In this document: piece after piece, positions 9,217 to 30,986 of the stretch
How the letters are laid out: the number at the start of each line of letters is the position of its first letter
Position numbering within the stretch: position 1 is the stretch's first letter
Source of the DNA: Oscillatoriales cyanobacterium
GTDB taxonomy: Bacteria > Cyanobacteriota > Cyanobacteriia > Cyanobacteriales > Microcoleaceae
Assembly (NCBI GenBank): GCA_004292955.1
Contig: RDXX01000052.1
Coordinates: forward strand, 1 to 41,391
Direction of reading: 5' to 3'
DNA length: 41,391 bases
Notes under the pieces: generated by a model
The model's database searches: none
The model's input: only the letters and a program-made list of their open reading frames with translations
Told to the model about the DNA's origin: nothing
Program-made: the position numbers and the translations under genes

Positions 9217-9242
9217 TGTTTGATTTTTCCGTTATCTAAAAC

Positions 9243-12139: not shown

Positions 12140-12255
12140 TGGCGGATTGTCAAGCTCTTAAGATTTTGCCAGATTTGGCGATCGAAAAATTGGCAATTCC
12201 TCTGCGGTTTGTACTGATGGGACTTGGGCGCGGGTGCGTCAGCCGATTTGAGATT

Positions 12256-12321
12256 CTTCGACTTCGCTGTACAAGTTTTAGATTTTAGATACTTCGACTT
12301 CGCTGTACAAGTTTTAGATTT
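12256..12321. repeat. Direct repeat, 30 bp, period 36
   Basis: Two identical 30-bp copies (12256-12285 and 12292-12321) contain CTTCGACTTCGCTGTACAAG, just before the terminator hairpin. The remainder of the 321-bp gap 12140-12460 shows no gene. Confidence 0.85.
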
Positions 12322-12328
12322 ACCCGTA

Positions 12329-12381
12329 AAAAAACCCGGTTTCTTGGTTCGCTACCAGGGACTAAAGAAACCGGGTTTTTT
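12329..12381. terminator. Perfect bidirectional terminator hairpin
   Basis: A 17-bp perfect stem (12329-12345 with 12365-12381) with core AAACCCGGTTTCTT and T-runs at the end on either strand. It lies between the end of the NAD(P)-binding gene and the start of the muramidase gene, both on the minus strand. A truncated third arm recurs at about 12417-12436. Confidence 0.85.
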
Positions 12382-12460
12382 ACCTAAATTGTTGGCTGTA
12401 AATGCGTATTTTCGTAAAAAAACCCGGTTTCTGGGAACCAGTGCACCAGTCCTAATTCAA

Positions 12461-13120: not shown

Positions 13121-13214
13121 AAGTCGAGTTATGCTGTTCTAGGGTAAGTTTTGTTACTATCTATTTCTCAATTGTAGGGAGGAAACTCCCCGACCACATC
13201 CCCAACCCGACTGA

Positions 13215-13319
13215 TTGGCGTGTATTACAGGAGAGCATGTCAGGAACCTCAGCCCCAACGGCATGAGGCTTGAAAGAGAAATCGGACAAGCCATTCTGAC
13301 CAGCCTAAGTCTTAACTGA
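13215..13319 (+). pseudogene. tnpB: Possible C-terminal scrap of an IS200/IS605 TnpB
   Basis: A short reading frame without a start ends in TGA at 13317 and reads ...GEHVRN, SPNGMRLEREIGQA, ILTSLSLN. It has the flavour of the variable C-terminal tail found just before the right end of cyanobacterial IS605-type elements. It is followed by a region that ends in an IS605-like right-end hairpin (13606-13622). The zinc ribbon and the RuvC domain are absent. This call rests on pattern memory and on the adjacent hairpin, so it is tentative. Confidence 0.4.
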
Positions 13320-13635
13320 CTACGTTTTTTGAGTCATGACACCCTGAGATGCTTTCGCTAGTCTCTTGCTCTGTCGCTGGTGGTTAAACAGTTTTAAGGT
13401 CACTGAAACAGTGCTGCTAGCCCAACAAGCTCAGAAAACTTTGACCGACAAGCTAACATTACCCCGAAAGGGAGGCTCAATTGAGCAAAATACTATGCGT
13501 ACAGGATTGGAAGATTTGAAGCGGTAATTGTCCCGTTGAAAGTGCAATACAAAAGCACCCCGAATTAACCAATCCCAAGGCGGTAGTAAATTCAAAAATG
13601 CAAAGCCGTCCTAGAAGGACGGGGTTTCTACCCAT
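13320..13635 (+). mobile_element. Probable right end of an IS200/IS605-type element
   Basis: These 316 noncoding bases end in a 7-bp perfect stem with a 3-nt loop (CCGTCCT AGA AGGACGG, 13606-13622) and GGTTTCTACCC. This arrangement is typical of the right ends of TnpB-bearing IS605 elements in cyanobacteria. In such elements the stretch between the tnpB stop and the right end encodes part of the guide (omega) RNA; here it would be an orphan. No transposase is left in the window. The right end lies directly against the ATG of the DUF1997 gene. Confidence 0.45.
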
Positions 13636-13642
13636 AATTTTG

Positions 13643-14359
13643 ATGATGAAGCAGAATTCCGCTGAATATCAAACTGTTGAAGCTTCTGACGAAAATTGCT
13701 ACGCAGATGCGAGTTTCAGACAGCCCGAAAGTGCAGGTGCGGATGCAGGCGAGGAAGTTGAGCCGATTTGGTTTCACACCCACTTTGAAGACAGCATGGA
13801 GATGTACGCCGATGCTGCAACGGTGGCCGAGCATTTCAACAATCACAAGACTTGGTTTTGTCAGTGCGCTGCGCCAATGAAGGCCCAGCCGATCGGCGAA
13901 AACGGCTACGATCTATTAATCGGTCGTTTTGGGGCCTTCGGCTACCGAGTTGAAGCAAGAATTGGTTTAGAGTTGCTGCCGCCTGACGCTGAAGGCTGCT
14001 ATTTGATTCAGACTATCCCGGTTCCGAATTATACCTCGCCCGGATATGAAGTGGATTTTCGATCGGCAATGAAGCTAGTCGAGATACCGTCTGACGAGTT
14101 TGCAGCCGATTGGCCTGCGTCGCAACGCGCCCAGCTACCGCCTGCGATTACCAGCGCCACCTGGAAGCTGGATTTAGCTGTAGGGGTTTGCTTTCCCAAG
14201 TTTATTCGATCGATGTCTCAACCTCTCATTGAAAAAACCGGCGATGCGCTTTTGGAAAAAATCATCAAACAAGTCAACCGCCGCTTGACATATAAAACTC
14301 AGCTTGTTTTCCATGAAAATTTAGGAATTCCCTTTCCCAAAAACCCGAAGAAACACTAA
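13643..14359 (+). CDS. DUF1997 family protein
   Basis: A 238-aa soluble protein of the DUF1997 family, conserved in cyanobacteria and plastids, function unknown. Family-like features are FVxCAAPMKAQPIGENGYDLLIGRFG-type wording (seen here as FCQCAAPMKAQP and YDLLIGRFGAFGY), a beta-rich middle, and a C-terminal amphipathic helix region (KIIKQVNRRLTYKTQLVFH). Two adjacent ATGs (13643 and 13646) are the likely start. An upstream in-frame start at 13598 would translate the right-end hairpin of a probable IS element and is unlikely. The first 40 or so residues are acidic and variable. The native promoter may have been replaced by the IS remnant. Confidence 0.8.
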   Translation: MMKQNSAEYQTVEASDENCYADASFRQPESAGADAGEEVEPIWFHTHFEDSMEMYADAATVAEHFNNHKTWFCQCAAPMKAQPIGENGYDLLIGRFGAFGYRVEARIGLELLPPDAEGCYLIQTIPVPNYTSPGYEVDFRSAMKLVEIPSDEFAADWPASQRAQLPPAITSATWKLDLAVGVCFPKFIRSMSQPLIEKTGDALLEKIIKQVNRRLTYKTQLVFHENLGIPFPKNPKKH

Positions 14360-14384
14360 CAAAAAAACGCTCGCGGTTGAAACC

Positions 14385-14480
14385 ATAGCGGATCGAATGA
14401 AAGATGAGGTACGTTGTTGGGCTTTAGCCCTCTTTCTTAGTTGAACTGCTTATAAGCTGTCATACCTCATCTTTTTAATA
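14385..14480. mobile_element. Degenerate copy 2 of the 102-bp miniature element
   Basis: In reverse orientation to copy 1: AAGATGAGGTACGTTGTTGG at 14400 matches the complement of the right half of copies 1 and 3, and TACCTCATCTTTTT at 14463 matches the other arm. The outer right terminus has diverged, and no TA duplication is visible. Confidence 0.65.
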
Positions 14481-14664: not shown

Positions 14665-17640
14665 TCAACCGCCGCCTGCGTTTCTGCGCCGCCAGCAAGG
14701 GAAGCTGACAAAGCCCTTATTTTTACTCACAGTAACGTGACAAGAAGATTTAATCGAACCAACATTAAAACCGCTGTTATTTCTAATCGCATTTCCCCTT
14801 CCTCCCTGACTCGCGACTGCCAGCAAACTGCCCTTAACCGTATTATTTTCTACAATTGCATTCTGCATCCCATTAATTTTTTGCTCAGTATCCGCATTCA
14901 CATAAATCAAAGGCCAATCACCCTTAACATTAGACAATAACTTATTCCCAAAAATCCTCACATCTCGAATCCGAGGCACTTGAGAAATACCGATGTAAGA
15001 ATTGCCAGTATTACCGACAATCTCCGCTTGCCGAACCGAAGTTCCGCCGCAGCAAGCATGAATCACAATTCCCCCTCCGTCATTGCTGAGAAACTCGGAA
15101 TCTTTCAGTTGATGTCGGTACACTTGAAAGTCATTATCTTGTATTAAAACATTCCAGCCGGCCCATTCGATCGCCCTACTGTTAAAACTCGTATTTTTCC
15201 CAGCGACTCCCGCGCCTGTATCGTCCGTCCACCAGCGCTTGCGGGCATCATCTCGAATCGCATTATTTTTAACAACCAAGCCATTTCCCGACGCTCGGAT
15301 TCCCGCCCTCATGGTATGATAAACCCAATTATCGCGAATCGCAATACCTTTGCGAAACAGACCCGGCTCAGCACTTGGTTCCGCCGCCAGCACAAAGTTT
15401 TCTTCAGATTTGCCAGCCTTGGAACGGTTGACTAAAATACCGAAATGGTTGCTGTAGTCGAATCTAACATCATATTGGGCGATCGCGCCTGTCTCGCCAG
15501 ATTTTACTTGATATTCAGGTTGCTGGTAATTATCTGTTATACTATCGTTAAGTCGATTGTTAGCAATTAAAACATTAGCCAAAGCATTAATTTTGATATT
15601 AGCCACATAGGGATTGGCATATCGCTGCCATGCTAATTGAAAATTCAGGTCTGGGACTGAAGAACTGGGTTCGGCAACGTTATTGCTGCGGAGGCCGTAA
15701 ACCACAATATTTCTATTTTGACTGTAGTCGAGATTGCTGAGCAAGTAAATTGGCGATCGGTTAATATCTAGATTAACCACACCAATATTGCTATCAGTAT
15801 TAGGATTTTCAGTAAAGATTCTTTTAAAAGCCGTGCTGTTCGGACTTCCCATCCCTGAAAGTTGCGGTTCGTATTTAGGAAACACAAATTTTGTCGGAGG
15901 ATTGTACAAAGTTTGTTTAGCATCTGTCATTGCGGGAGTTTCCCCTCGAATGACTACTCCCGACTTCAAATAGATACTGTCTGGAAACTCATAAGTCCCC
16001 GCTGGAAAATAGACAACTCCGCCACCGTTAGCAGCAGCAATATCTCGGGCAAAATTAAACCTGTCAATCAGAGTGCCGCCTTGGAAGTCTTGGATATTGT
16101 ATGCACAAGTCCATTTAATTTCCGATGTCCAAGGATAAGATTGTTTTCCGTATCGAGAATCTATCGGATTATCCGTTGGCCCGCCGCTGGAACTTCCGCA
16201 GCCTAACAGTTGTCCGGGAAATAGCGATGATTTTGCTTTGACAATAAAGTTGTTGATATTATTGAAATTAGTTACATAAAAACTTCCGATTAACGAGACA
16301 ATAAATATACCCAAAAACATATAAAGCTGAACTTGAGGTGAAATTAATCTTCTTTTCTCGTTATCTTGAGAACAAGGATATCTAACAGCAGCGAAACTGA
16401 GAGTCCACCAGGCAATATGTGCGTATTGAGCGCAATCAAACCAGGTAACAGCAAAAACCAGATAAGCAATAGCAACTGCTGCAATCCCGCCAATAGAGGA
16501 TTGCAGCGCTAAAGATAAATAATATCCCCAAAGTGCAATGCCAGCAATCAGCCCCAAAATACCAACTGATACAGTTGTATCGAGAATCCAATTGTGAGCT
16601 TTATAAGTAGGAATTTCTCTGGTGCTAATTTCACCTTTTATGTTAATATAGTCGTAGGTAAACTCGTTCAAGTTGACGACTCTCGGAGTTACTTGAGGAT
16701 TCCTGATATAGGGATAAGCAATCCCTAAGCCGTCGAATCCCCATCCAAATAACGGGCGTTTTTTGATTCCTCTGGCTGCAAGTTCCCACATGGGCGATCG
16801 GCTGGACACGACTTGTTCGATGCTCGGTTTTTGCCAGTTGAGGGGTCTGTTAAGCGTCATGATGCCCGCAGCGAGGGTGCCCATCAGGGCTATACCGGTG
16901 AGAATTTTGTAGTATTGGCGTCCCAACAAATAAGCACAGGCAACAATCAAAGCTACAATTGCACTGCGGGTAGAAGTTAGCAGCAGTGCGGGAACAGCTA
17001 AAATCAAAGTAATTGCAGTTAATTTAGTATTCGTAAATCTCCAAAACCAACCGACAATAGCAGTAATTGCCGTCAACGCTAAAACTACGGCTGCGTGGCC
17101 GCGGTGGGAGTACAATCCTATGGGCTGCTGTCCTTGAAAAATGCTGCTGGCTAAAACATCACCTCTGATTTGTTTCCCCATTGTAGCGGTGTAGTCAATC
17201 CGCCAGTCAATGATTTGGGGGAAGATACTAAGAGAAAGAATGATGCCACCAATTAGCAATCCTTGGAATTGGGAATTGATCAGTTGCGGGCGCGCGATTA
17301 AGAGCAAGCTGTTGCTGAGAGTGAAGGCGGCAATTAACAGCCAGTATAGCCAGCCATCTCCCATTTGATCTTGACCGAGAAAAGAGGTTAAGGGAAAAGG
17401 ACTGTGCAGAGTGGAGATAGCTCCTATTGAGAGAAATATTGTCCAAAGTATTAGAGAAATCTTCCATTGTCTGGAAATGGTTAGGACTTTTCTTTGTTCC
17501 CACAAAAGAGCGAGATTGACTCCTACTATTAGCCAGATAATTAATACCTTGGGGGAAGTCCAGATGATGCCCCGGCTGCTTCCCCAAGGGTTGATGAGAA
17601 TGATGCTGAGGGCAAACAGGATGGTGTAGAGGCTTTTCAT
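14665..17640 (-). CDS. O-antigen-ligase-like membrane domain fused to beta-helix
   Basis: A 991-aa protein in two parts. Residues 1 to about 460 form a polytopic membrane domain with about 11-12 helices, resembling the Wzy/WaaL/PglL (O-antigen ligase) family: SHRGHAAVVLAL, TSTRSAIVAL, then SRSPMWELAARGIKKRPLFG, GWGFDG and KAHNWILDTTVSVGILG with the conserved His-Asn. From about 500 to the end lies a pectate-lyase-type right-handed beta-helix, starting TLIDRFNFARDIAAANGGG and GVVYFPAGTYEF and continuing with Asn-rich rungs (VVKNNAIRDD, VLIQDNDF, RIFGNKL, IVENNTV). WaaL/PglL-type enzymes transfer lipid-linked glycans on the periplasmic face; the beta-helix probably binds or cuts polysaccharide. 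The start codon overlaps the stop of the PEP-CTERM gene by one base (TAATG), so the two are translationally coupled. I do not know this fusion as a named family. Confidence 0.8.
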   Translation of the reverse strand: MKSLYTILFALSIILINPWGSSRGIIWTSPKVLIIWLIVGVNLALLWEQRKVLTISRQWKISLILWTIFLSIGAISTLHSPFPLTSFLGQDQMGDGWLYWLLIAAFTLSNSLLLIARPQLINSQFQGLLIGGIILSLSIFPQIIDWRIDYTATMGKQIRGDVLASSIFQGQQPIGLYSHRGHAAVVLALTAITAIVGWFWRFTNTKLTAITLILAVPALLLTSTRSAIVALIVACAYLLGRQYYKILTGIALMGTLAAGIMTLNRPLNWQKPSIEQVVSSRSPMWELAARGIKKRPLFGWGFDGLGIAYPYIRNPQVTPRVVNLNEFTYDYINIKGEISTREIPTYKAHNWILDTTVSVGILGLIAGIALWGYYLSLALQSSIGGIAAVAIAYLVFAVTWFDCAQYAHIAWWTLSFAAVRYPCSQDNEKRRLISPQVQLYMFLGIFIVSLIGSFYVTNFNNINNFIVKAKSSLFPGQLLGCGSSSGGPTDNPIDSRYGKQSYPWTSEIKWTCAYNIQDFQGGTLIDRFNFARDIAAANGGGVVYFPAGTYEFPDSIYLKSGVVIRGETPAMTDAKQTLYNPPTKFVFPKYEPQLSGMGSPNSTAFKRIFTENPNTDSNIGVVNLDINRSPIYLLSNLDYSQNRNIVVYGLRSNNVAEPSSSVPDLNFQLAWQRYANPYVANIKINALANVLIANNRLNDSITDNYQQPEYQVKSGETGAIAQYDVRFDYSNHFGILVNRSKAGKSEENFVLAAEPSAEPGLFRKGIAIRDNWVYHTMRAGIRASGNGLVVKNNAIRDDARKRWWTDDTGAGVAGKNTSFNSRAIEWAGWNVLIQDNDFQVYRHQLKDSEFLSNDGGGIVIHACCGGTSVRQAEIVGNTGNSYIGISQVPRIRDVRIFGNKLLSNVKGDWPLIYVNADTEQKINGMQNAIVENNTVKGSLLAVASQGGRGNAIRNNSGFNVGSIKSSCHVTVSKNKGFVSFPCWRRRNAGGG

Positions 17641-19406
17641 TACTCTTTGTTTTTCCTATTTTTTAGTCTGGTAATGACAGGCAATATGGCTAGGGCAAAT
17701 AGTGTTCCTAATGCGGTAGTAGGTTCGGGAACGGCTTCTACGGGGAGGGCATCGTCGTCGGTGTTTTTAGATGAAACATTTTGAGTTTTTGCAGTGAGAG
17801 TATCGTCAACATACGATAGTTGTGGGTCTTGAAGTAACTTGCTGCTGATGTTGGCTAAATCTAGTGCATCGGAATTGTTATCCTCTGAAGATAGTTCTGG
17901 GTCTTGGAGTAAGTCGGCGCTAATGCCTCCGATATCTGCGTTATTTTCGTTGTTGTCTGTTGACAATGATTCTGAATCAAGAAGTAGATTACTGCTAATG
18001 TCAGTTAAATCTATCTTCTTTTCGCTGCTAGGAGTTGATGATTGTTCAGGATTTTCTAGCAATTCCCCACTGACGCTAGCTACGTTTAAATCTTCAGAGC
18101 TGGTACGAGTTGATGAGAGTTCAGGACTGAAAAGTAAGTCGCGACTGACGCTAGCTACGTCCACGTTATCGGTGGCATAGTTATTGTTACCTTTGGCAGC
18201 ACTGTCAAAAAGTAGCTTCAGGGCTAAGGTAAGGGTATTACCACTTCTGAGAGAAGAAGCGGGAACCGCCCGAATCGGACGACCGCCACCACTGGGGCTT
18301 GGTGCTGGACGCGGACTCGGCGCTGGAATCGGACTGGGTGCTGGACGCGGACTCGGCGCTGGACGCGGACTCGGCGCTGGAATCGGACTGGGTGCTGGAC
18401 GCGGACTCGGCGCTGGACGCGGACTGGGGCTGGGGGCTGGGCGAGGACTTGGGGTAGGAGATGGTCTTGGAGTCGGGCGCGGACTTGGGGTAGGGGATGG
18501 TCTTGGGGTCGGGCGCGGGGAGGGTGTAACAGAAACGCATCCGCCACCACCGCTAGCACCGGAACAAGGTTTAGGGCTAGGATTTGGGGTAAATGTGCTT
18601 GTCCAACCCCATGAAATACCATTGTAAATTTTGACAAATCCAACAGTTTTATTGTTGATTATTTTAGGCCCTATAAACTTAGCTAAGTAAAGTTCAAAAT
18701 TCCAATCATTGTTGTAAAAGTAACTTGGTTTTGGCCTTTGTATAGAATTGTAAGGTACGTCGAACGCAGAAAACAAAAGGTCTCCTGTTTGAGAGTTGGT
18801 TTTTCCAGATAATCCTCCACCGGGATAGAAAGGGTTGAGAGAATTGGGAGTATCAATTAAATCAAAATAAGTTTTTGTCTGACCATAAACCGTTATAGGC
18901 TGACCGCCAGTATTAACAGTTGCTCTTTGAATCCAAAAAGTATCATTATTGATGTTTGGATTTGGTTCATCCTGACGGTTCCGCTCGTAATCTACGGAGA
19001 AAGAAGCTCCTACTCCACCTTTATTGCCACCCGGAATAGGAAATGTCACTCCTGGATACTTACCAGCTAAATCACCTCCACAAGGAGTCAGAGGTTGACA
19101 GGGATAGTAACTTGTAACATTAAAATCTCCGTTTAAATTTGCACCTTTTTTGAATTGCCAGTTAGCTCCATAGCTTTGTCCTAGTATATTCAAAAAATCC
19201 CTGCTTCCACCCCGTTCTATTTCCTTTATATTTTTCGTCTTTACAGTAACAATGCCATTAAGATTGCCATCGGCACTACTTACCTGTACAGAATCAGAAG
19301 AACTATTTGTTTGACCTTTGATATTAAACGCAAGGCTATGCTGACACATCGGCTCTGTCAGTACCGCTGTTGCTAAAATAATCACGGATAATTTTTGCGA
19401 TTGCAT
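17640..19406 (-). CDS. PEP-CTERM surface protein A
   Basis: A 588-aa exported protein. In order: a signal peptide (about 1-28, ending SLAFNI); an N-terminal domain of about 250 aa with a conserved YYPCQPLTPCGG Cys pair, ending at IYNGISWGW; a stalk of Pro-Ser-Arg-Thr-Ala repeats (about 293-385); five acidic repeats of about 25 aa of the type DLANISSKLLQDPQLS (about 415-540); and a PEP-CTERM sorting tag near the end (AVPEPTTALGT, a hydrophobic helix, then RLKNRKNK). PEP-CTERM proteins are cut by an exosortase and displayed at the envelope or in exopolysaccharide; no exosortase gene is present here. It is paralogous with the protein at 21288-23279 over all segments. The following ligase/beta-helix gene overlaps its stop codon. 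Confidence 0.9.
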   Translation of the reverse strand: MQSQKLSVIILATAVLTEPMCQHSLAFNIKGQTNSSSDSVQVSSADGNLNGIVTVKTKNIKEIERGGSRDFLNILGQSYGANWQFKKGANLNGDFNVTSYYPCQPLTPCGGDLAGKYPGVTFPIPGGNKGGVGASFSVDYERNRQDEPNPNINNDTFWIQRATVNTGGQPITVYGQTKTYFDLIDTPNSLNPFYPGGGLSGKTNSQTGDLLFSAFDVPYNSIQRPKPSYFYNNDWNFELYLAKFIGPKIINNKTVGFVKIYNGISWGWTSTFTPNPSPKPCSGASGGGGCVSVTPSPRPTPRPSPTPSPRPTPRPSPTPSPRPAPSPSPRPAPSPRPAPSPIPAPSPRPAPSPRPAPSPIPAPSPRPAPSPSGGGRPIRAVPASSLRSGNTLTLALKLLFDSAAKGNNNYATDNVDVASVSRDLLFSPELSSTRTSSEDLNVASVSGELLENPEQSSTPSSEKKIDLTDISSNLLLDSESLSTDNNENNADIGGISADLLQDPELSSEDNNSDALDLANISSKLLQDPQLSYVDDTLTAKTQNVSSKNTDDDALPVEAVPEPTTALGTLFALAILPVITRLKNRKNKE

Positions 19407-19485
19407 TTTGGTATTTCCTTATTTTCAAAAAAGATTAGGCTTCGTTCAAATATGATGCCAAAGGCAATTGGGAAGCAAATCTGGC

Positions 19486-20160
19486 TTAGGAAGAGACTAA
19501 TTTAATTTCTACCCAGGGAGTAGAAAATAGACCTTTCACAATTCCTTTTAACTGCCTACGTTGTCCATTTTTTAGATTGACGTAAGAAATCTCTGTATTA
19601 GCATTTTCGTAGGTCAATCGAACATCATAAGTACCGGGGGTGAAAGTTCCGAATGACAATGAACGACCCCTACTCCGCTCGTAGGCTCCAAATAGAAGCC
19701 TATTCTCATTCCAGTAAAATTCTCCTTCCCAAAATACTGTGAAGCTTTTTCCAGGTGGAACCAATGGAAAATCACGCTCAGTCAGAGGTATAAGACTCAA
19801 TGCAAAGTCATCCATAAAAAGGGCTTTATCATTGAATCCTATGAATTCTGGGGTAAGGTGGTACTTATTGAAACGGATGGGTACTGAGGTCTTGTTGGTA
19901 ATCCGAATACCAACTCGCCAAGGGGTCTTTATATCAGGCATATTTTCTGGGATGCTCACTACCTGATTCGGCACAACAGTTTCAAAGATGACTCCATCTA
20001 CTTCAACTGAATTGTTGGTATTAGTTAACTGAACAGATGTTAATTCAGTAGTTTTGACTGCGCTCATATTTTTTGAAGCAAATACTTCGGGAGAAACATG
20101 AGCTACTGCTACTCCTCCAGACAAAAATAAAGCCACCAGAAATAGAAAAAAATACCTCAT
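19486..20160 (-). CDS. Secreted beta-rich module protein, cassette A
   Basis: A 224-aa protein with a signal peptide (MRYFFLFLVALFLSGGVAVA) and one copy of a beta-rich module shared by four loci in this region. The module begins SVEVDGVIFETVVPNQV and VSIPENM, has the central VGIRITNKTSVPIRF, a PGKSFTVFW turn, PGTYDVRLTYE, and ends STPWVEIKLV. The pattern suggests an Ig-like beta-sandwich; I do not recognise a named family. ATG 20160 is preceded by GAGAGGGCGAG, a good ribosome-binding site, whereas the upstream TTG (20175) is not needed. It lies 26 bp after the anchored protein and about 80 bp before the PEP-CTERM gene, so the three probably form an operon. Confidence 0.75.
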   Translation of the reverse strand: MRYFFLFLVALFLSGGVAVAHVSPEVFASKNMSAVKTTELTSVQLTNTNNSVEVDGVIFETVVPNQVVSIPENMPDIKTPWRVGIRITNKTSVPIRFNKYHLTPEFIGFNDKALFMDDFALSLIPLTERDFPLVPPGKSFTVFWEGEFYWNENRLLFGAYERSRGRSLSFGTFTPGTYDVRLTYENANTEISYVNLKNGQRRQLKGIVKGLFSTPWVEIKLVSS

Positions 20161-20186
20161 ATCTCGCCCTCTCAATTACCGGACAA

Positions 20187-20621
20187 TCAGCGAACAAACC
20201 AGAACCACACCGCCGCACCAATTACCATCAGCCAAAATAGTTTCCCGCCACGGACATTCGACTCGGACGGCTGCTTAATCAAAGTATACTTGTAATATCC
20301 CTTCATCGGCTGAGTATCATCCTGAACAGATCTAGACATCGGCCAATCAAACGCAGATTTCGATCGCTCGGACGGCATCCGAACTCCACTGGGTGGAAAA
20401 CCGTAGGATAGTGGTAGGCGCCAATGCTGCGGTAGGCTTTCTTGTTCGGCAATTTGCTTCTCCGTCAGCGGTACAAACTCCAACTTATACTCACCAGTCA
20501 GATGAGGTCTCATTATTTGATAGAAACTGCTACGAAATTGATGGCGTTCGAGCTTTGATGGTGGTCTGTAATTATATTTGTTGCAGCAATGTTTATCAGT
20601 GTAGTGTTCTTGCCAGTTCAT
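20187..20621 (-). CDS. Small C-terminally anchored protein, cassette A
   Basis: A 144-aa protein of unknown family. The N-terminal part has a Cys-Cys/Lys-Tyr-Asn segment (DKHCCNKYNYRPPS), the middle reads LEFVPLTEKQIAEQESL, and the C-terminus is a single hydrophobic helix GGKLFWLMVIGAAVWFWF followed by VR and the stop. This is a tail-anchor arrangement with no N-terminal signal. The paralogue at 25065-25559 has an almost identical helix. The start at 20621 is chosen because GAGGAATAATT precedes it and it aligns with the paralogue start. The upstream in-frame ATG (20666) falls in a leader that is conserved as DNA but not as protein. It is the first gene of cassette A. Confidence 0.75.
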   Translation of the reverse strand: MNWQEHYTDKHCCNKYNYRPPSKLERHQFRSSFYQIMRPHLTGEYKLEFVPLTEKQIAEQESLPQHWRLPLSYGFPPSGVRMPSERSKSAFDWPMSRSVQDDTQPMKGYYKYTLIKQPSESNVRGGKLFWLMVIGAAVWFWFVR

Positions 20622-21055
20622 AATTATTCCTCGTTGATGTCCCTGATAATGAACGAAGAGATTCATAGCGATGGGATAAGTCTAAGCGTAATTAAATAGA
20701 TTGGCAATAGTTATAAAAAAAAAACTATCTTAAAAAATTTAACTAATAAATAAAATTTATAATAGTAAGTAACTCAGGCTTAATTTAAGTTGATAAAACA
20801 TTGCAATCTACACAATATGAGTATTTATATGTACGTAGGGTAAAGTAGAGTTTACAGAATTTTTACAAGAGTGTCAGTTAACTTGACGGGCTTTTTAAAA
20901 CAGAGTGTTGCCGAGCGTTATACATGGTATGCGGTTGACTATAAAATTGGTGATTCGACAGCCGCAAAAAATACAATTTCCTCTCGAACTTGGCTCAAGT
21001 GAGTCTAAGTGTTATATGCAAGTAGTTTTACTTAAGTGTGTGATGCCAGTCGAAA
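20622..21055 (-). promoter_or_regulatory. AT-rich leader of cassette A
   Basis: This AT-rich stretch precedes cassette A. Blocks are shared with the leader of cassette B: AATCTCTTCGTTCAT (minus strand, around 20648-20662), and on the plus strand GGCTTAATT, AAAACATTGCAA and CAAGAGTGT (about 20778-20875, matching about 25878-25950). Conserved noncoding blocks in front of both cassettes suggest a common promoter or control region. I could not fix a -35/-10 pair with confidence. Confidence 0.5.
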
Positions 21056-21253
21056 GGTCGATCGCACGTTTGGACAATTAACTCAAAAGGTCGATCGCAC
21101 TTATTACACAATTTACTCAAAATGGCGATCGCACTTATTACACAATTTACTCAAAATGGCGATCGCACTTATTACACAATTTACTCAAAATGGCGATCGC
21201 ACGTTTAGACAATTTACTCAAAAGTTAGACAATTTAGTCAAAAGGTCGATCGA
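21056..21253. repeat. Tandem array of 33-34-bp HIP1-containing units
   Basis: Units lie at 21056-21088, 21089-21122, 21123-21156, 21157-21190 and 21191-21223, plus two partial ones. Each has the form (GG/TG)(T)CGATCGCAC, a short variable part, and ACAATTTACTCAAAA. Units 3 and 4 are identical over 34 bp. The array is between the end of cassette B and the leader of cassette A. A related shorter version (GGTCGATCGCAC...CTCAAAAAGTCGATCGCA) is at about 25982-26030 upstream of cassette B. Confidence 0.9.
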
Positions 21254-21287
21254 AAACAGACAGACAACAACCTCAATAAATACTCTA

Positions 21288-23279
21288 CTACTTCTGAGTT
21301 TTCCTGTTTTTGAGCTTGAGGAATATACCTAATCCGGTGAGTGCTAATAGCGTTCCTAATTCAGTCGTAGGTTCGGGAACGGCTTCGGCTGGGAGGGCAT
21401 CATCGTCAGGGTTTTTAGTTTTGGAGGCTAGGGAGTTGTTATCCTCTGAGGCTAGTTCTGGGTCTTCCAATAAGTCGCCGCTGATGCCAGCTAAATCAAG
21501 TTCATTTTCGTTACTGTCGGTTGATGATAATTCTGGGTCTTCGAGCAAGTTGCCACTGATGCTAGCTAAATTGACTTGGTTTTCGTTGTTGTCTGTTGAT
21601 GATGATTCTGGGTCTTCAAGTAAATCACTGCTGATGCTAGCTAAATTGACTTGGTTTTCGTTGCTGTCCGTTGATGATAGTTCTGAGTCTTCAAGTAAAT
21701 CACGACTAACGCCAGCTAGGTTTGCATTGTTCAAACTATTGTCCGTTGATGATAATTCTGGGTCTTCAAGTAACTCACTGCTGATATTTGCTAGGTCTGT
21801 GGCATCGCTATCAACACCAAAAGTTGCGTAGGTGCGGGCAGCGCGAATTGGCGAACTGGGCCGCCCAAAGGATGAGGGCGATGTAGTAGTTGTTGTTGAT
21901 GTTGAGACAACGACAGTTGATGATGTTGACCCCAGTGGAGATGTCACCCAAGGTGTAGGAGTTGGCCAGGGTGAGGGAGTCCAAGGTGAGGGAGTTGGCA
22001 AAGGTGTCGAGGTTAGTCGAGGTGATGGTGTTGCTGTTGTTGCCCATGGTGCAGGCGTAGGCCAAGGTGATGGAATCCAAGCTGACGGGGTTGGCCAAGG
22101 TGATGAAGTCCAAGCTGAGGGTGTAGGAGTTCGTGATGGAGTCCAAGCTGAGGGTACTGGTGCTGGCCCGGGTGTTGGTGCTGGCCCGGGTGTTGGTGCA
22201 GGTGATACTAATATTATTGTTGATGGTGTTGGTGACGGGCTTGGTGCAGGTGCTGGACGCGGTGTTGGCAAAGGTGAAGGGGTTGGTCGTGGTGTTGGTT
22301 TTGGTGATGCTGTTACGTAGCCTATGCCACCGCCGCCACTAGCACTACTAGCGACCGGTTCACCTTTGGGTATACGTATGGGTGGCAAGTCGAAGTCGGG
22401 AATGATGGGAATGATAAACGGGAATGGCTTTGGGCTTGGAGTTGGAGTTGGCTTTGGAACGGGAACGGGATCTGGTTCTTTGCGACGAGTTACTGTGTTT
22501 TTCCAACCCCATCTGATTCCGTTGTAAATGGTGATTGTTCTTTTCTTACTTGTTGGTGGCGTAGTCTCTTGAACTAGGTAGAGTTGCGCTGTGAAATAAT
22601 TGTTTCTTCTAGCAGAACTTAAACCTGAATTATATGGTCGATCCATAAAGAAGTCTTCACCCGCAAAATCAGTGTTGTTTGGACCGTCGTAGTAGGGATT
22701 TTGTTTTTTATTAAAATTATCGATAAAAGGAACACCATGTATCCGAGATGCACCTGGTATAGTGCTACCGTAGTTAGCTTGTACAATCTGAATCCAATAA
22801 AGTTTACCTTCACCTGGTTGAGGATCGCCCTTTCCTGGATGATACTTTAAGTGAAAAAGAGATCCCACTCCCCGATAAGTTTCATATTTTGTTTCAGGGA
22901 TAGACGTACTAGCCCCACCACACGGATCCTTAGGAGAGCAAGCTTGATAAGTTATTACCTCAAAACTACCCTTTAAGTCCTCTGCGGCTGCATTAAAAGT
23001 CCAACCAGACCGACGTTGATCAGACAGAAAAGACCATGCTGAAAGAGTTCTTTTAAAAATAGGCGTTCCACCATGGGGCAGAGGCTCCGACCATAATCCC
23101 ATACCTATCTCCGTTGTGGTTTCTCGATTCTTATCTATTTGGTAAGTAGATACGGGTTCGTAATACCTGGTAGCACCGGGAGTTGGGGGGATAATATTAA
23201 AAGCAATACTTGCTTTGCCCGTCAATCCAACTATCAAGAATGATGTTAACAAAACTTGGGAATATTGTCGAAATAACAT
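21288..23279 (-). CDS. PEP-CTERM surface protein B
   Basis: A 663-aa paralogue of the protein at 17640-19406. It has a signal peptide (about 1-28, again ending in AFNI), an N-terminal domain with the conserved YQACSPKDPCGG Cys pair and the end signature IYNGIRWGW, then a long Pro/Ser/Thr/Trp-rich stalk (about 268-480) including several S-A-W-T/I-P-S-P-W-P-T-P units. Five acidic 25-aa repeats follow (about 497-620; typical unit VNLASISGNLLEDPELSSTD), then the PEP-CTERM tag (AVPEPTTELGTLLALTGLG, basic end RKTQK). The stalk and repeats differ in length and detail from protein A, so these parts evolve by repeat turnover. A surface-displayed, possibly O-glycosylated protein is the inference. Confidence 0.9.
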   Translation of the reverse strand: MLFRQYSQVLLTSFLIVGLTGKASIAFNIIPPTPGATRYYEPVSTYQIDKNRETTTEIGMGLWSEPLPHGGTPIFKRTLSAWSFLSDQRRSGWTFNAAAEDLKGSFEVITYQACSPKDPCGGASTSIPETKYETYRGVGSLFHLKYHPGKGDPQPGEGKLYWIQIVQANYGSTIPGASRIHGVPFIDNFNKKQNPYYDGPNNTDFAGEDFFMDRPYNSGLSSARRNNYFTAQLYLVQETTPPTSKKRTITIYNGIRWGWKNTVTRRKEPDPVPVPKPTPTPSPKPFPFIIPIIPDFDLPPIRIPKGEPVASSASGGGGIGYVTASPKPTPRPTPSPLPTPRPAPAPSPSPTPSTIILVSPAPTPGPAPTPGPAPVPSAWTPSRTPTPSAWTSSPWPTPSAWIPSPWPTPAPWATTATPSPRLTSTPLPTPSPWTPSPWPTPTPWVTSPLGSTSSTVVVSTSTTTTTSPSSFGRPSSPIRAARTYATFGVDSDATDLANISSELLEDPELSSTDNSLNNANLAGVSRDLLEDSELSSTDSNENQVNLASISSDLLEDPESSSTDNNENQVNLASISGNLLEDPELSSTDSNENELDLAGISGDLLEDPELASEDNNSLASKTKNPDDDALPAEAVPEPTTELGTLLALTGLGIFLKLKNRKTQK

Positions 23280-23370
23280 GGGTTTTGACTCCTAGAGGTA
23301 TGAGGTTTAAAAGAAATATCAGCTTTTAAGGATAATTAGATGAAATAGGCTCTTTCACTTTAAGCTCAAT

Positions 23371-24636
23371 TCAAGAACGCACTAAGCGAAAGTCTACAAA
23401 GGGAGTTGATATTTGACCGCTCCAGATATCTAAAGTCGTGTATGTTTCTACAGACTCGTATATTTTAACCATTGTTTGATCGCTCCTATATGTAAACCTA
23501 ACTTGGTATGTTTCTAGAGTTAGAGGTTCAAAAACCCATATGCCACCATTTCCGGTAGGAGTCTTAAGTCCAAACTGCTCTTCCCAAAGCCCAAAAATTT
23601 CTGCTTCGGGAAAAAAGGTAATATCCTCTCCGGGCATAACGGAAAGAACATCAGAATTAGAGGGCCCGCTAAGGCTAATCCACCCACCTCCGAATGGAAT
23701 TAGTCCATCTACTCCCATAATTTCTAGAAATAAGGTGAAATAAAAGCTAAATCTAAGGGGAGTAGATGTATTATTGGTAATCCGAATACCAATCTGCACG
23801 GGGATTATAAAGGAGGAGTAGTAAATTGATATAGGTGATAAAAATTTCATTAGGTACAGAAGTTTATGTATTAAATTGTTTTTGGGTATGCTTAAAACTC
23901 GCTCTGGTACTAAAATTTCAAAGCGAACACCATCCATTTCCACAGCATTGCTGTCTGCTTCTACTGGTTGAACCAAGCGAAGATTTACAAAAGGAGTAAT
24001 CAATAGTTCTGACTTGCTCTCTTCTACATTTGTTATTTCGACATTATCTATCCCAGGTATTACTCTGTTTGCACAGTTGTGTTGATAGATAAACCTAATT
24101 TGATAATTTCCGGGCAATAGTGCCTCAAATAACCAGAAATTATGAAGTTTTATCGACCCGAAAAATTCGTTGAACTCAGTAGAAATTTTCAGTGCAAGTA
24201 AGTTATTTTCCCAGGCAAGACTTGCGTCGATCGTGATAGTTTTGGATTCTCTAGGCTCAACTAACATATAATTAATTTCTCTGGTTTCGTAGCACTCCTG
24301 CGATAAGTTTAAGTTCGATATAAATTCAGTCAATCTGCCCGCCCATCCTGTTCTATATCTGTTCGGTTGAACTTCAGATTCTGGCTTTTCGTTAACTAAT
24401 TGCCGCTGTAAGGCTTGACCCTCGGATGTTACAATTTCTGGAATCAAGGTTCCAGAGAGGTTGAAGTGGAAAGACATTGAAGTGTTATTGGTAATATGAA
24501 TATATAATTCTATAGGAGGCGTGATGCCCGCTCTGTTTTCAGGGATGGTGAGCGCCGTAGGGTCAGGCAGCATAATTTCCATATTAATGCCACTTACTTC
24601 CATTGCGTTGTTGTCACTGAATTGTTCTGATGTCAT
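23371..24636 (-). CDS. Tandem two-module beta-rich protein, cassette B
   Basis: A 421-aa protein made of two copies of the module found at 19486-20160. Module 1 (about 10-208) begins AMEVSGINMEIMLPDP and ends TPFVNLRLVQP. Module 2 (about 213-421) begins AVEMDGVRFEILVPERV, contains IGIRITNNTSTPLRF and YQVRFTYR, and ends STPFVDFRLVRS. Module 2 carries an extra hydrophobic stretch (about 243-270) after the IPKN motif. No N-terminal signal peptide is seen: the protein starts MTSEQFSDNNA. It may be cytoplasmic, or its signal sequence may have been lost. It lies about 90 bp before the PEP-CTERM gene of cassette B. Confidence 0.7.
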   Translation of the reverse strand: MTSEQFSDNNAMEVSGINMEIMLPDPTALTIPENRAGITPPIELYIHITNNTSMSFHFNLSGTLIPEIVTSEGQALQRQLVNEKPESEVQPNRYRTGWAGRLTEFISNLNLSQECYETREINYMLVEPRESKTITIDASLAWENNLLALKISTEFNEFFGSIKLHNFWLFEALLPGNYQIRFIYQHNCANRVIPGIDNVEITNVEESKSELLITPFVNLRLVQPVEADSNAVEMDGVRFEILVPERVLSIPKNNLIHKLLYLMKFLSPISIYYSSFIIPVQIGIRITNNTSTPLRFSFYFTLFLEIMGVDGLIPFGGGWISLSGPSNSDVLSVMPGEDITFFPEAEIFGLWEEQFGLKTPTGNGGIWVFEPLTLETYQVRFTYRSDQTMVKIYESVETYTTLDIWSGQISTPFVDFRLVRS

Positions 24637-24656
24637 GTTGGTTAACCTTTTGATTT

Positions 24657-25042
24657 TTAGAGATGAAGGATATCAATACTGATGAATTGCAACGGATTGA
24701 GAGAAGTAGCACCGGGCTTGTTTTCGGGGATAGCTAGTGCAATAATTTGTGGCTCTCTGATTTCCAGTAGGAGACCAGATTGTTTGATTTTATTGCTGTT
24801 ATTCGCTCCTTGAGATGTCATATAGCCTTTCTCAAAAAGATGAGGTATAACTGACAGCCCACACAACCCTTAAACTAATAGGGCCCAAGCCCAACAACGT
24901 ACCTCATCTTTCTGAGAACTGCTATATTTTGAACCATTCCAAGTTTTGAGTGTTCATTGCCAACTGCTTTTATACTGGCATAGGTTATTACCACGATCGC
25001 AGAAATTACTAAAGCCAATAAAAACCGCAAAAGATACTTCAT
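24657..25042 (-). pseudogene. Secreted module gene split by a miniature element
   Basis: The minus strand starts with a signal peptide (MKYLLRFLLALVISAIVV, then KAVGNEHSKLGMVQN) and is then interrupted by the 102-bp element at 24823-24924. Removing the element and one TA restores a continuous frame ...GMVQN-MTSQGANNSN, followed by the start of the beta module (LLLEIREPQIIALAIPENKP) and an early stop at LQFISIDILHL. The module is therefore both interrupted and truncated. ATG 24821, formed at the element border, could reinitiate a 55-codon fragment without signal peptide, but there is no ribosome-binding site. The SD-like AGAGAGCG before ATG 25042 shows the original start. Confidence 0.75.
24823..24924. 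mobile_element. 102-bp miniature inverted-repeat element, copy 3
   Basis: The ends TAGCCTTTCTCAAAAAGATG and the near-complement ending TGAGAACTGCTA are flanked by TA on both sides (24821-24822 and 24925-24926). It has the same length and orientation as copy 1. Excision in silico restores the reading frame of the host gene, which fixes the boundaries and the TA target duplication. Confidence 0.85.
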
Positions 25043-25064
25043 CGCTCTCTGGATTATCAAATAA

Positions 25065-25559
25065 TCAGCGAAAAAACCAGAACCACACCGCCGCACCAAT
25101 TACCATCAGCCAAAACAATTTACCGCCACTTCCTGAATCTGACGACCCAGTTAGCAAAACATACCTGTAATACCCCAGAACTTGCCCAGATTCGTTCTCA
25201 AGAGGCACAGAATTATCTCGACCATCCCAATAATTTCGGGGAGGATATTGCTGTTGATAATCCGAAATACTTTGCCAAGGAACTCGGGATGTTGGGCAAT
25301 AATTGTGAGGAATATTCTGCTTGGTATTCGGTGGATAACTGTAGCATAGCTGCTGTCGGAAATGCAGTGATAAGCGCTCTCTTTGAGCCAGTTCCTTTTT
25401 AGTAATCGGCACAAACTCCGACTTCAAGTCGAAAACAGGGCGCGGGCCAACTTGGCTACAGCAATTACCACAAAACTGATTGTGAGTAAGGTTTGATGGT
25501 GTAGAGCAATTAGATTTGTCGCAGTAATGTTTTTCACTACCCTGTTGTTGTCGGTACAT
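25065..25559 (-). CDS. Small C-terminally anchored protein, cassette B
   Basis: A 164-aa paralogue of the protein at 20187-20621. Shared parts are EKHYCDKSNCSTPSNL with HNQF near the start, SEFVPITKKELAQRERL in the middle, a Tyr-rich GYYRYVLL before the anchor, and the C-terminal helix GGKLFWLMVIGAAVWFWF plus FR. It has extra Cys residues (CGNCCSQ) that could bind metal together with the first pair. An AGGAGGAATT directly before ATG 25559 is the best ribosome-binding site in the region. It is the first gene of cassette B, followed 22 bp later by the split secreted-module gene. Confidence 0.75.
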   Translation of the reverse strand: MYRQQQGSEKHYCDKSNCSTPSNLTHNQFCGNCCSQVGPRPVFDLKSEFVPITKKELAQRERLSLHFRQQLCYSYPPNTKQNIPHNYCPTSRVPWQSISDYQQQYPPRNYWDGRDNSVPLENESGQVLGYYRYVLLTGSSDSGSGGKLFWLMVIGAAVWFWFFR

Positions 25560-26088
25560 AATTCCTCCTGATTAGTGCAGGCGCGAGTGAATATTGCTAA
25601 CAATATTCCTTCCCCTGCCTTCCTTCAAATACGGGACTTTCTGCAAACCAACTACAACCACAACACCCGATCGATTGCCACAAACCCAATGAATCTTTAA
25701 ACAACAGTGGCTTTCGATCTCAACAATCAACCAAACAATGTCTCTGATACAAATGAACGAAGAGATTGATATCAATAGTCACAAACTTAAGCGATGAATG
25801 ACAAGCTTGTCAACAGTTATTATAAATTATATTACAATAATTATATTGTGATAAAAAAATTTATATTAACTCCCTGGCTTAATTAAAATTCAGAAAACAT
25901 TGCAAATTGATGAATAAAGTTCATATTTATTCATAGAGTCAAGAGTGTTAGGGGCGATCGCTTATTATGTGATGGACGGAAAGGTCGATCGCACTTTTCA
26001 CACCATGCAACTCAAAAAGTCGATCGCATTGCACAATGCCAGCCGAAAGACCAACGTTATCAACCGCAAATACTTGGTCAAATGTAAT
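25560..26088 (-). promoter_or_regulatory. Leader region of cassette B
   Basis: This 529-bp gap shows no gene. It shares blocks with the leader of cassette A (AATCTCTTCGTTCAT near 25750-25766 on the minus strand; AAAACATTGCAA and CAAGAGTGT at about 25890-25950). About 160 bp lie between that first block and the ribosome-binding site that are absent from cassette A. Several TATAAT-like hexamers occur at 25820-25865. HIP1-type sites and a relative of the 34-bp array unit are at about 25950-26030. Confidence 0.5.
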
Positions 26089-26766
26089 TCAACTTTGTGT
26101 ATCCACTACGCAAAACTCTACATAAGGCGTGAATACTTGCCCCGTCCACATCGCATCAAACGATTCCTCCTCCATCAAATAATGATAGTATAGGATTTCT
26201 TCATCGCTGCAATAGTTTTGTCGATCCTCGTTGTATAATCTTGACCATTCCTCATTTATTAAATAATGATAGTATTGTACTGATTCATTAGTGACTTCAT
26301 ACTTCAATCGAATCGAATAATTCCCTAAATTTTTTAGCGGAAATCCCAAAAATTCACGATTCGTAAAAGGCAGAGACAATAGTAAAGTTTGCTCGCGTTT
26401 TTTTTTATTGTGATGTTTGCGATCCCAACCAATACGGGCATTCGGAAAGACCATTACAGACTTCCCCGGCTTAATTAAGTGAAAATCAAATACGTGAGGA
26501 TATCCAATGCCGTCCGCTTGGTATCCAGCATTAGTATTTTGACCGTCTGCTGCTAGAATTTCGGGAACAAAGTTATGATGGAAGCTAAAACAATACGAGT
26601 TTGACCTGTTGTTGGTAATGCGAACATATAACTTGACCGATGTATCATGATTTGATTTGGGTTTTGATGGCATGGGCACAACCACTACCATTTTTGACAC
26701 AAATATTTCAAATCGGATGCCATCAACTTCGACAGCATTGTTATTAAAAAATTCTCTTTCTGTCAT
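26089..26766 (-). CDS. Single-module beta-rich protein, orphan copy
   Basis: A 225-aa protein with one copy of the same module: it begins AVEVDGIRFEIFVSKMV, continues VKLYVRITNNRSNSYCF, PGKSVMVFPNARIGW and YSIRLKYE, and ends FTPYVEFCVVDTQS. Like the two-module protein it starts MTEREFFNNNA and has no signal peptide. It is upstream of the cassette B leader in the same direction, separated by 529 bp, and is probably its own transcription unit or the remains of a third cassette. The insert with two near-identical YYHYLINEEW/YYHYLMEEES pieces suggests a small internal duplication. A purine-rich GGGAGGGAAAGC before the ATG supports the start. Confidence 0.7.
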   Translation of the reverse strand: MTEREFFNNNAVEVDGIRFEIFVSKMVVVVPMPSKPKSNHDTSVKLYVRITNNRSNSYCFSFHHNFVPEILAADGQNTNAGYQADGIGYPHVFDFHLIKPGKSVMVFPNARIGWDRKHHNKKKREQTLLLSLPFTNREFLGFPLKNLGNYSIRLKYEVTNESVQYYHYLINEEWSRLYNEDRQNYCSDEEILYYHYLMEEESFDAMWTGQVFTPYVEFCVVDTQS

Positions 26767-27074
26767 GATGCTTTCCCTCCTTATTCATTCATCCTAACGG
26801 TTTTCGATTGGGTGAAGATATCGGGCAAAGGACGGGGAAATACCTTGTCCCTGCGGTATTTAATAGAATTAAAAACTGCTCGATCTAGTATTGTAGCCGA
26901 TGTAGTAGAAAACCCGCTCCCCTCGCCCCTCGGCAACCAGCAAGTGTCTCAGATCACAAGGCCGGTCGTAGCGAAGCGGGGCGTAAGCCATCGCCCTCAC
27001 TGCCCAAAAACCTAAAAATATGTCAAATTAAGTAAGGGGTTATAAAATAACTCTTGCCATATCCGTAGACAGTT
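26767..27074. other. Intergenic region between divergent genes
   Basis: 308 bp between the minus-strand module gene and the plus-strand hybrid kinase. There is a small imperfect stem around 26839-26863 (AATACC...GGTATT). I see no gene and no promoter that I would defend. Confidence 0.4.
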
Positions 27075-29288
27075 ATGACAACAAAACTAAGAGCTACAGA
27101 CACAGACAAAATGGAGATAGACTTGCAGCAGTTCAGGGCAGACCAAGAACTGATTCTCAACCAAGTAGATAATGCGATCGCTCTTTTCGACTCGTCTGAC
27201 AGCTTAGTTTTGTTTAACAAAAAATTGGCCGAGACTTGGGGACTGTCCCCAGAATGGCTGGCAACCAAGCCTAAGTGCGACTTGTTGTTTGCCGAAATTG
27301 TCGATCGCGGTTACTTGTCGCTTCAGCAGTGGGAAGAGTTTCAGCAAGCACTGCAAACATCTCAGGATGAAAGTTTATCATTTTATTTCGAGCAATCCAA
27401 TGCCGTTTGTTTGGAAGTCTTCGCCACAATTACCAACAGCGGCGGGCGGCTGTTTACCTTTCGAGACGTTACCGTATACCAAAACTCCCAAGCTAGTTTG
27501 AATGCAGAAGTCAGGCGCCTGACATTTCTTTTAGGCTTAACTGAACGCCTGCAAAACTCTCACAGTTTGCAAGAAATAGGTCAGTTTGCCCTCAGCTATC
27601 TGGTAGAAGCGACGAATGCTGCTTTCGGAGACGTAAAAGTGATTAGCGGTAAGGGAAAAGACAGGCAAGCGGCGGCGATTTCCAACCAAGTTTCTACTCA
27701 ATTTCTGGCTAGTTACGGGGAACCAGTCGCCGCTGGAATGCAAGAATTGCTCGACAAAGGTATTCCCTACGGCACCGGTTTGCTGTGGGAAGTGGTGGAA
27801 ACTGGTAAAGCTTTGTTTGTCGATGATTATGCCGAACATCCCAATGCTGTGCCGCAATTTCGGCATCCGGGAATCGGACAATTGGGCATTTTTCCGATCG
27901 CATCTACTGACGGCACAATCATCGGAGTGTTGACGCTGGAGTCGCGCAACGTCAAAAAACTGCAAGCTTCCCTCCACCAAGAAGTGCTCACGGCTGCTTG
28001 TCGGACTCTGGGGGCCGCAATCCAGCGGGCTCAGACACAAGAAAACCTCCGCCAAGTTAACGAACAATTAGAGTATTCTTCTCAGTTAAAATCCGAGTTT
28101 TTAGCCTCGATGTCCCACGAATTGCGGACGCCTCTCAACAGCATTCTCGGATTTTCTGACTTGCTGCTGCGCCAAACATCCGGCCAGTTGAGCGATCGAC
28201 AAGTTAACTATGTAGAACTGATCGAAAAAAGCGGTCAGCACTTGTTGCAGCTAATTAACGATATTCTCGATCTTTCTAAAATTGAAGCAGGAAAAGTAGA
28301 ACTCAATTTACTGCCTGTTCGCGTTCACGAACTCGCCACAGACTGTCTGAAAATGATTCAGCCGCGGGCAGATAAAAAGCGAATTGCTTTGTCTTTAGAA
28401 CTCGACTACCGCATTACTAAAGTTTTGCTCGACGAACGGCGAGTGCGACAAATTGTGATTAATTTACTTTCCAATGCTATCAAATTTACCCCCGAACGGG
28501 GACAAGTTAAACTTAGCGGGCGTCTGGCCTACGGCAATGAAATTAATGGCGATTACCGCCCTGATTGTTCTCCTGTAAATGCCAGCACTCCCTACTTTTG
28601 TCTTGAGGTGAAAGACTCGGGTATCGGCATTCCTCAGGATCGCTGGCACTTGCTATTTCGACCTTTTCAACAGGTGGATTCTTCCCTGACTAGGCGCCAC
28701 GAAGGTACAGGTTTGGGTTTGGCTTTGACTAAGCGTCTGGCGGAATTGCACGGCGGAACTGTTTCTTTTCAATCTATTTGCGATCGCGGCAGTTTGTTCC
28801 GCGTTTGGCTGCCTTTGACGGAGATGCGTCAAGAGTTGGGCAGCTTTGCTGCTTGTGCTTTGGATGCTAAGTTAGTTCCTGCTTCTGCGATCGCATTACC
28901 ACTTGGCAGCAAGCGGATTCTGGTGGTGGAAGACCAACCTTTTAACCAAATGTTAATTTCAGAGGTGATGGAATTGGAGGGCTACGGGGTAGAGATTCTG
29001 GCGGATGGTTCGTCAATGCTCGATCGCATCCATGCCGCCTCTGCTGCGCCGGAATTGCTGCCAGATTTGATTTTGATGGACATTCAGTTACCCGATGTTG
29101 ACGGGTTTGAGTTGATGCGCCGAGTCAAAGCAAATCCTGTCTGGGAGTCGGTACCGATGATTGCGGTGACGGCGATGGCGATGGCTGGCGATTGCGATCG
29201 ATGTTTGGAAGCTGGCGCTTCTGCTTATTTGAGCAAGCCGCTGGATCTAAATTTGGCGATCGCTACAGTCCGTTCTTTTCTCAACTAA
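27075..29288 (+). CDS. Hybrid histidine kinase (PAS-GAF-HisKA-HATPase-REC)
   Basis: A 737-aa soluble hybrid sensor kinase. A PAS-like domain (about 20-135, with NAIALFDSSDSLVLFN and FTFRDVT) precedes a GAF domain (about 150-320), a DHp helix with phospho-acceptor His348 in SHELRTPLNSILGF, an HATPase_c domain (N box NLLSNAIKFTPE, G1 DSGIGIP, G2 GTGLGLALTK) and a C-terminal receiver with phospho-acceptor Asp669 in LILMDIQLP and Lys in YLSKPLD. The GAF lacks a bilin-type Cys-His pair, so its ligand is unknown. There are no membrane segments. It precedes a receiver-adenylate cyclase gene by about 220 bp on the same strand, so a relay kinase to cyclase receiver is plausible. Confidence 0.9.
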   Translation: MTTKLRATDTDKMEIDLQQFRADQELILNQVDNAIALFDSSDSLVLFNKKLAETWGLSPEWLATKPKCDLLFAEIVDRGYLSLQQWEEFQQALQTSQDESLSFYFEQSNAVCLEVFATITNSGGRLFTFRDVTVYQNSQASLNAEVRRLTFLLGLTERLQNSHSLQEIGQFALSYLVEATNAAFGDVKVISGKGKDRQAAAISNQVSTQFLASYGEPVAAGMQELLDKGIPYGTGLLWEVVETGKALFVDDYAEHPNAVPQFRHPGIGQLGIFPIASTDGTIIGVLTLESRNVKKLQASLHQEVLTAACRTLGAAIQRAQTQENLRQVNEQLEYSSQLKSEFLASMSHELRTPLNSILGFSDLLLRQTSGQLSDRQVNYVELIEKSGQHLLQLINDILDLSKIEAGKVELNLLPVRVHELATDCLKMIQPRADKKRIALSLELDYRITKVLLDERRVRQIVINLLSNAIKFTPERGQVKLSGRLAYGNEINGDYRPDCSPVNASTPYFCLEVKDSGIGIPQDRWHLLFRPFQQVDSSLTRRHEGTGLGLALTKRLAELHGGTVSFQSICDRGSLFRVWLPLTEMRQELGSFAACALDAKLVPASAIALPLGSKRILVVEDQPFNQMLISEVMELEGYGVEILADGSSMLDRIHAASAAPELLPDLILMDIQLPDVDGFELMRRVKANPVWESVPMIAVTAMAMAGDCDRCLEAGASAYLSKPLDLNLAIATVRSFLN

Positions 29289-30978: not shown

Positions 30979-30986
30979 ATAAAAAA

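Follow-up and report, generated by a model that had tools for sequence, protein, structure and literature searches.

An exchangeable head and its Ig-like partner probably share a constant tail and ligase platform in a PEP-CTERM-like surface protein of an Oscillatoriales cyanobacterium

Why would an Oscillatoriales cyanobacterium carry, twice in succession, a short run of genes built around a large PEP-CTERM-like protein, and which of these genes belong together? We addressed this question in a window of 41,391 nucleotides (positions 1 to 41,391 of the forward strand of contig RDXX01000052.1, assembly GCA_004292955.1), in which two cassettes on the minus strand, A2-B2-C2 (25559-21288) and A1-B1-C1-D (20621-14665), are accompanied by an orphan B gene (26766-26089). 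A is a small protein, B consists of one or two modules predicted to be Ig-like (pLDDT 90.6 for the model of the B1 module), C has an N-terminal head followed by a repeat-containing, PEP-CTERM-like tail, and D is a candidate ligase. The original prediction, made from this DNA alone, saw A, B and C as a three-part set in which A and B serve the export, folding or attachment of C; D was missing from its list of cassette members. The explanation that we favour, with moderate confidence, is that a fast-changing surface head and a cognate Ig-like partner are exchanged together on a constant exosortase/ligase platform.

The evidence that carries this explanation is that the two ends of C vary with different neighbours. 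Within the genus, identity to the window is 80-91% for D, 26-57% for C heads and 19-46% for B modules. We compared between-cassette distances by Mantel correlation (r), removal of near-duplicates having reduced 45 cassettes to 40 (L, G and C numbers below are our labels for loci, genomes and contigs). The head varies with B (r 0.575, n=40, p 0.001), shows next to no correlation with D (r 0.061, n=32, p 0.11) and none with A (r -0.11, n=9, p 0.76). The tail of C gives r 0.622 with D (n=23, p 0.001) and 0.153 with the head of its own protein (n=27, p 0.006). When near-duplicates are kept (n=35), r between B and head is 0.653, and still 0.645 given D, whereas D and head give 0.127 (p 0.01), falling to 0.003 given B. 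Judged by these distances, C is a chimera whose head tracks B and whose tail tracks D, although it is D that touches C. B thus tracks the head more than the PEP-CTERM part, a picture of head and partner forming one block on a platform of tail and ligase rather than of a three-part export set.

Gene content was scored by script in 37 cassettes with strict PEP/PES tails (at least 130 residues) and D within 400 nt, three of which were dropped near contig edges (L104, L119 and L122); the headed L132, which lacks B, lies outside this set. B stands upstream of the C-type head in 27/27 D-linked cassettes and upstream of other heads in 1/7. The single case among the latter, L117, has its head in an overlapping, shifted open reading frame (ORF), and the hand-corrected table reads 28/28 versus 0/6. 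The six D-linked cassettes with unrelated heads (L103, L105, L108, L121, L135 and L148), two of which contain NIDO domains (L108 and L135), have no B within 1.2 kb upstream.

That B and the head move as one block is seen at a site common to the window and three relatives, L033 (G016), L034 (G028) and L035 (G020), with matches of about 80-95%. The flanks of L033 match the window at 8785-14390 and 26880-27514, those of L034 at 26990-29295 and those of L035 at 26909-30996. In L034 and L035 a different B-head block is framed by the same A1 region (from 20128 upward, 83-86%) on one side and the same tail and D (87-88%) on the other. The right edge lies at 20128, inside the B1 leader, in all three relatives. 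The left edge is at 18160 in L033 and at 18082 in L034; L035 has it at 18554, and a weaker similarity (80%) continues there through the Pro-rich region. The exchangeable block (18160-20128, minus strand) comprises mature B1 and the C1 head, and in comparison with L033 and L034 the Pro-rich region too. The C tails also contain 75-bp (25-residue) tandem repeats with a motif like ISxDLLEDPELSS (17817-18162 and 21378-21798), and the left exchange edges fall in or near them. In L033 the two cassettes are also in a different order: the far one contains the A1-like gene, and D is directly preceded by the window's B2-C2 block (21447-24823, 92.6% identity). L054 (G026), in which the match runs unbroken through 16345-20251, has kept the window's block.

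Rates of change point in the same direction. With sequence ends set by hand, the ratio of nonsynonymous to synonymous substitution rates (dN/dS) is 0.13-0.21 for D, 0.20-0.26 for its beta-helix-like part and 0.26-0.77 for A, versus 0.65-1.21 for B and 0.70-1.33 for the head. Between the window and L033, dS is 0.32 for D, 0.03 for B2 and 0.12 for the C2 head, the low values for the last two being expected if the block moved recently. On these alignments, B and the head are exchanged, are paired by descent and change rapidly.

Another finding of this study concerns which genes are conserved as a unit. At the level of the order these are B-C-D, not A-B-C. With A1 and A2 of the window as queries, A was found in 16/61 genomes of the family, all from the window's genus (g1), and a 15-row profile found it in 5/243 genomes of the order, in 1/109 genera. 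By contrast with this one genus, the C head occurs in at least 32/243 genomes (19 genera), B in at least 40/243 (21 genera) and D in at least 41/243 (23 genera), counts that are lower bounds because candidates were scored in part in many of the 243 genomes, and in which weak D matches (e.g. G140 and G211) may be other Wzy_C proteins. Among the at least 32 genomes with C, a hand count from match lists gives B in at least 26 and D in at least 24. The B model was built from 68 of 94 deduplicated modules together with the four from the window, and the head model from 39 of 39 heads together with the window's two. The order B, C, D recurs at many loci, though not at all of them: D comes first in L131/L061, for example. 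In named genomes (70 loci, from Microcoleus, Tychonema, Nostoc, Planktothrix, Chlorogloeopsis, Oscillatoria, Argonema, Roseofilum, Okeania and others), seven of 54 D ORFs were dropped for lying near contig edges, and a PEP-tailed gene lies directly upstream of 37 of the remaining 47, as against 19/613 control ORFs (called mechanically, with a length of at least about 200 residues). The 1-nt overlap of D with the gene upstream recurs in 14/47. Ten D genes have no upstream PEP tail (L112, L127, L132, L133, L138, L142, L147, L149, L154 and L155); in L132, L133 and L142 the ORF before D ends in a degenerate tail motif. The more distant D genes of L089 and L148 are preceded by short PEP-CTERM genes, and neither B nor a C head is present there.

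These counts bear directly on the original prediction, which had proposed scoring how often its three families are neighbours. The survey went half against it: A was found in a single genus, where the A-B-C order is repeated, and also stands before two cassettes with other heads (L103, and L108 with a changed A end), whereas the B-C linkage holds. The idea of a dedicated multi-gene unit around a PEP-CTERM protein survives, with D in place of A, and B is well supported as a dedicated companion of C; A as a general partner is not.

The pair of B and head also occurs where the rest was not detected. Of the 32 genomes with C, G217 and G229 (95% and 94% complete, G229 with 7% contamination) have no exosortase match and no D match, and both have B and a C head. 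In G217 the head ORF starts with MAFSII at the expected start of the mature head, stops after the head and has no tail, and B has no leader. The head gene of G229 is 98.7% identical to that of G217, with seven synonymous and two nonsynonymous changes. Retention in both genomes suggests that head and B are able to persist as a pair without the display parts.

What, then, is the platform? By eye, C1 and C2 plainly end in PEP-CTERM sequences, yet these score below curated cut-offs: for TIGR04155, 9.8 bits (C1) and 14.0 bits (C2) against 21.6; for TIGR02595, 13.6 bits (C2) against 16, with C1 not listed; for Pfam PF07589 neither is listed. Among ten relatives' C proteins scanned, three exceed the TIGR02595 cut-off of 16 (22.1, 17.7 and 17.4) and none that of TIGR04155. 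Like known substrates of the PEP-CTERM/exosortase (EpsH) system, C has a signal peptide (a hydrophobic leader in 40/47 relatives' C genes, and by eye in C1 and C2), a diverse N-terminal part, a tail that by eye is of the PEP-transmembrane-basic kind and an exosortase in the genome, where three PF09721 matches exceed the cut-off. It differs in lying within a B-C-D cassette with an exchangeable head-partner block. Leaders were called by a crude hydrophobicity test rather than by a trained signal-peptide predictor. PEP-CTERM proteins are numerous and diverse, and the role of their variable parts is largely unknown.

D (14665-17640, minus strand) has 991 residues and overlaps the C1 stop codon with its start codon by 1 nt. 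Its membrane part (residues ~1-440) matches PF04932 (Wzy_C) with 48 bits against a cut-off of 31.7, and its beta-helix-like region (~471-991) matches PF12708 with 21.1 bits, under the cut-off of 27. R281, H349 and a GWG motif (299-301) are invariant across 17 rows; the conserved Arg and His we take to be the functional residues of the Wzy_C/O-antigen ligase superfamily. The profile also matches 7tpg, named a putative cell surface polysaccharide polymerase/ligase (E 3.6e-4). The two parts of D are joined in one ORF here and also in the distant L131 (=L061); many relatives have the ligase alone. The nearest known family by name is TIGR03097 (PEP_O_lig_1, putative O-glycosylation ligase, exosortase A system-associated), part of whose model D matches, with 21.1 bits against a cut-off of 188.1. 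D differs from it in adjoining one substrate candidate and in its occasional fusion to a beta-helix-like part. Haft et al. 2006 (PMC1569441) stress the diversity of PEP-CTERM proteins, and the word "ligase" is absent from the main text of that paper.

Taken with these features, the locus would be a surface-display cassette in which the Ig-like B and the N-terminal head of C form a cartridge and the C repeats, the PEP-CTERM tail and D a platform, to which A was added in the window's genus. The signal peptide would direct the export of C, one of the exosortases encoded in the genome would process its tail, and the protein would most likely be anchored or released through that enzyme. D, probably translationally coupled to C, may attach a glycan to C or join C to a polysaccharide. 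B would be the cognate partner of the head, acting in folding, masking or co-display, and recombination at the conserved leader and tail would swap B and head together and so vary the outer display. We infer that B binds the head, that D carries out the proposed reaction, that an exosortase processes C and that the pair may serve recognition. The genomes themselves separate the variable head and partner from the constant tail and ligase; if the explanation is true, the locus would point to how filamentous cyanobacteria vary their surface.

Several observations weigh against this explanation. B also correlates to some extent with the tail (r 0.261, n=27, p 0.001) and with D (r 0.158, n=32, p 0.005); its correlation with the head is weaker when the Microcoleus clade is taken by itself (r 0.368, n=10, p 0.036); and the module one further upstream correlates with the head nearly as strongly as the adjacent one (r 0.449 versus 0.561 in the same 26 cassettes). 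The loci are not independent, many being from one clade. A B match is absent from 6/32 genomes with C (from match lists in which B counts are lower bounds), and among head ORFs, 2/50 from named loci (L132, and L122 at a contig edge) and 5/69 from the remaining loci lack B within 2.5 kb upstream; these two sets overlap and include ORFs near contig ends. The adjacent B has no leader in 25/47 cassettes by the hydrophobicity test, so B may often be cytosolic. The dN/dS values near 1 come from few pairs with small dS and could reflect relaxed constraint, and B of G217 and G229 differ by six synonymous and nine nonsynonymous changes, with no clear constraint. Finally, B and head inherited together on a single stretch of DNA would correlate even if they did not bind each other.

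This last point is the core of an alternative that we regard as rather unlikely, namely that B and the C head lie side by side, evolve fast and are carried along in the same recombination tract, with no specific relation between them. Linkage would explain the correlation, tandem copies and repeats favour recombination, many copies are broken, and both the dN/dS near 1 and the C heads without B fit it. Linkage alone, however, sits poorly with D, which overlaps C1 but hardly correlates with the head, with the lack of B before all six unrelated heads, and with the B-head pair in the two genomes without detected exosortase and D. A more specific version of the favoured explanation, possible but held only tentatively, is a self-recognition or surface-variation system, in which matched, strain-specific head/B cartridges exchanged between tandem cassettes and between species would encode identity or evade phage or competitors. 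In polymorphic toxin-immunity systems, too, a variable domain has an adjacent, co-varying partner, partners occur as orphans and domains are exchanged. By analogy, an exported head might harm neighbours or block phage, with B as its immunity protein and the orphan B3 as a spare. The co-varying neighbour, the tandem and orphan B genes, block swapping and the frequent lack of a B leader speak for such a pair, as does a weak likeness of B to protease inhibitors and AsaP1. For BsuPI and chagasin inhibitors the Pfam matches are few and weak, below cut-off: neither PF12690 nor PF09394 is listed for B1, PF09394 gives 14.5 bits against 27.2 for B2, and among 72 members of the B family, at E up to 0.1, Inhibitor_I42 appears in five and BsuPI in one. 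The likeness to AsaP1 in profile and fold covers what is presumably the AsaP1 prodomain, at a Z so low that it can reflect a common arrangement. Here, though, the variable part is N-terminal instead of C-terminal, and it is the C terminus that bears the anchor signal; display is what the tail and D suggest; in a scan of 41 members the head matches no NCBIfam family at E up to 0.1, no PADLOC family matches C1, and no catalytic signature is seen by eye. We consider a toxin-immunity pair distinctly unlikely. The version in the original prediction, in which A and B help to export or attach the PEP-CTERM part of C, has in its favour that A-B-C is repeated in the genus, but B tracks the head more than the tail and A was found in a single genus and is uncorrelated with C (n=9), which makes it highly improbable.

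Returning to the window itself, A-B-C indeed occurs twice on the same strand, and the two copies are paralogous as predicted: A1 and A2 are 42% identical, C1 and C2 44%, and the other three window B modules 29-36% identical to B1. In copy 1 (all genes on the minus strand), A1 occupies 20187-20621, a start at 20666 being possible and homologues favouring 20621; B1 (19486-20175) has a hydrophobic leader and one Ig-like module; and C1 (17640-19406) consists of a signal peptide by eye, a C-type head (18582-19337), a Pro-rich region, repeats and the PEP-CTERM-like tail. In copy 2, A2 (25065-25559) has an N-terminal Cys motif, zinc-ribbon-like by eye, and a conserved tail, GGKLFWLMVIGAAVWFWFFR; B2 (23371-24636) has two modules and no leader; C2 (21288-23279) has a signal peptide by eye, its head at 22455-23210, a Pro-rich region, 25-residue repeats and a VPEP-TM-basic tail, and no D follows it. 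A leader-like sequence near 25041 (by eye) is cut off from B2 by a truncated B module (24657-24866, minus strand, B profile E 4e-07) and an inverted-repeat element (24820-24927, arms 24820-24847 and 24900-24927), MITE-like by eye, which separates the leader remnant from the module remnant. The orphan B3 (26089-26766, minus strand), a single module without leader, had suggested a third, eroded copy. The gene is intact and belongs to the B family; an eroded cassette is possible but unproven, and profile annotation shows no adjoining third A or C. DNA of this region (26254-26785) is 68% identical to L033 15672-16200, part of a relative's leaderless B. The source genome has a second B-C-D locus on contig C25 (L057), with a different PEP tail type and no A detected, and on contig C147 (L058, 9645-12036) a broken array of B modules near the contig end, with C absent. 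Between the cassettes lie 34-bp tandem repeats with GCGATCGC (21050-21210), with a related copy at 25980-26006. The noncoding blocks said to precede each copy are likewise conserved, at 20648-20672/25752-25776 (88%) and 20777-20806/25876-25905 (87%); the two upstream regions are 70% identical to each other over 178 nt, and that of copy 1 is 92.5% identical to the relative L046 over 467 nt.

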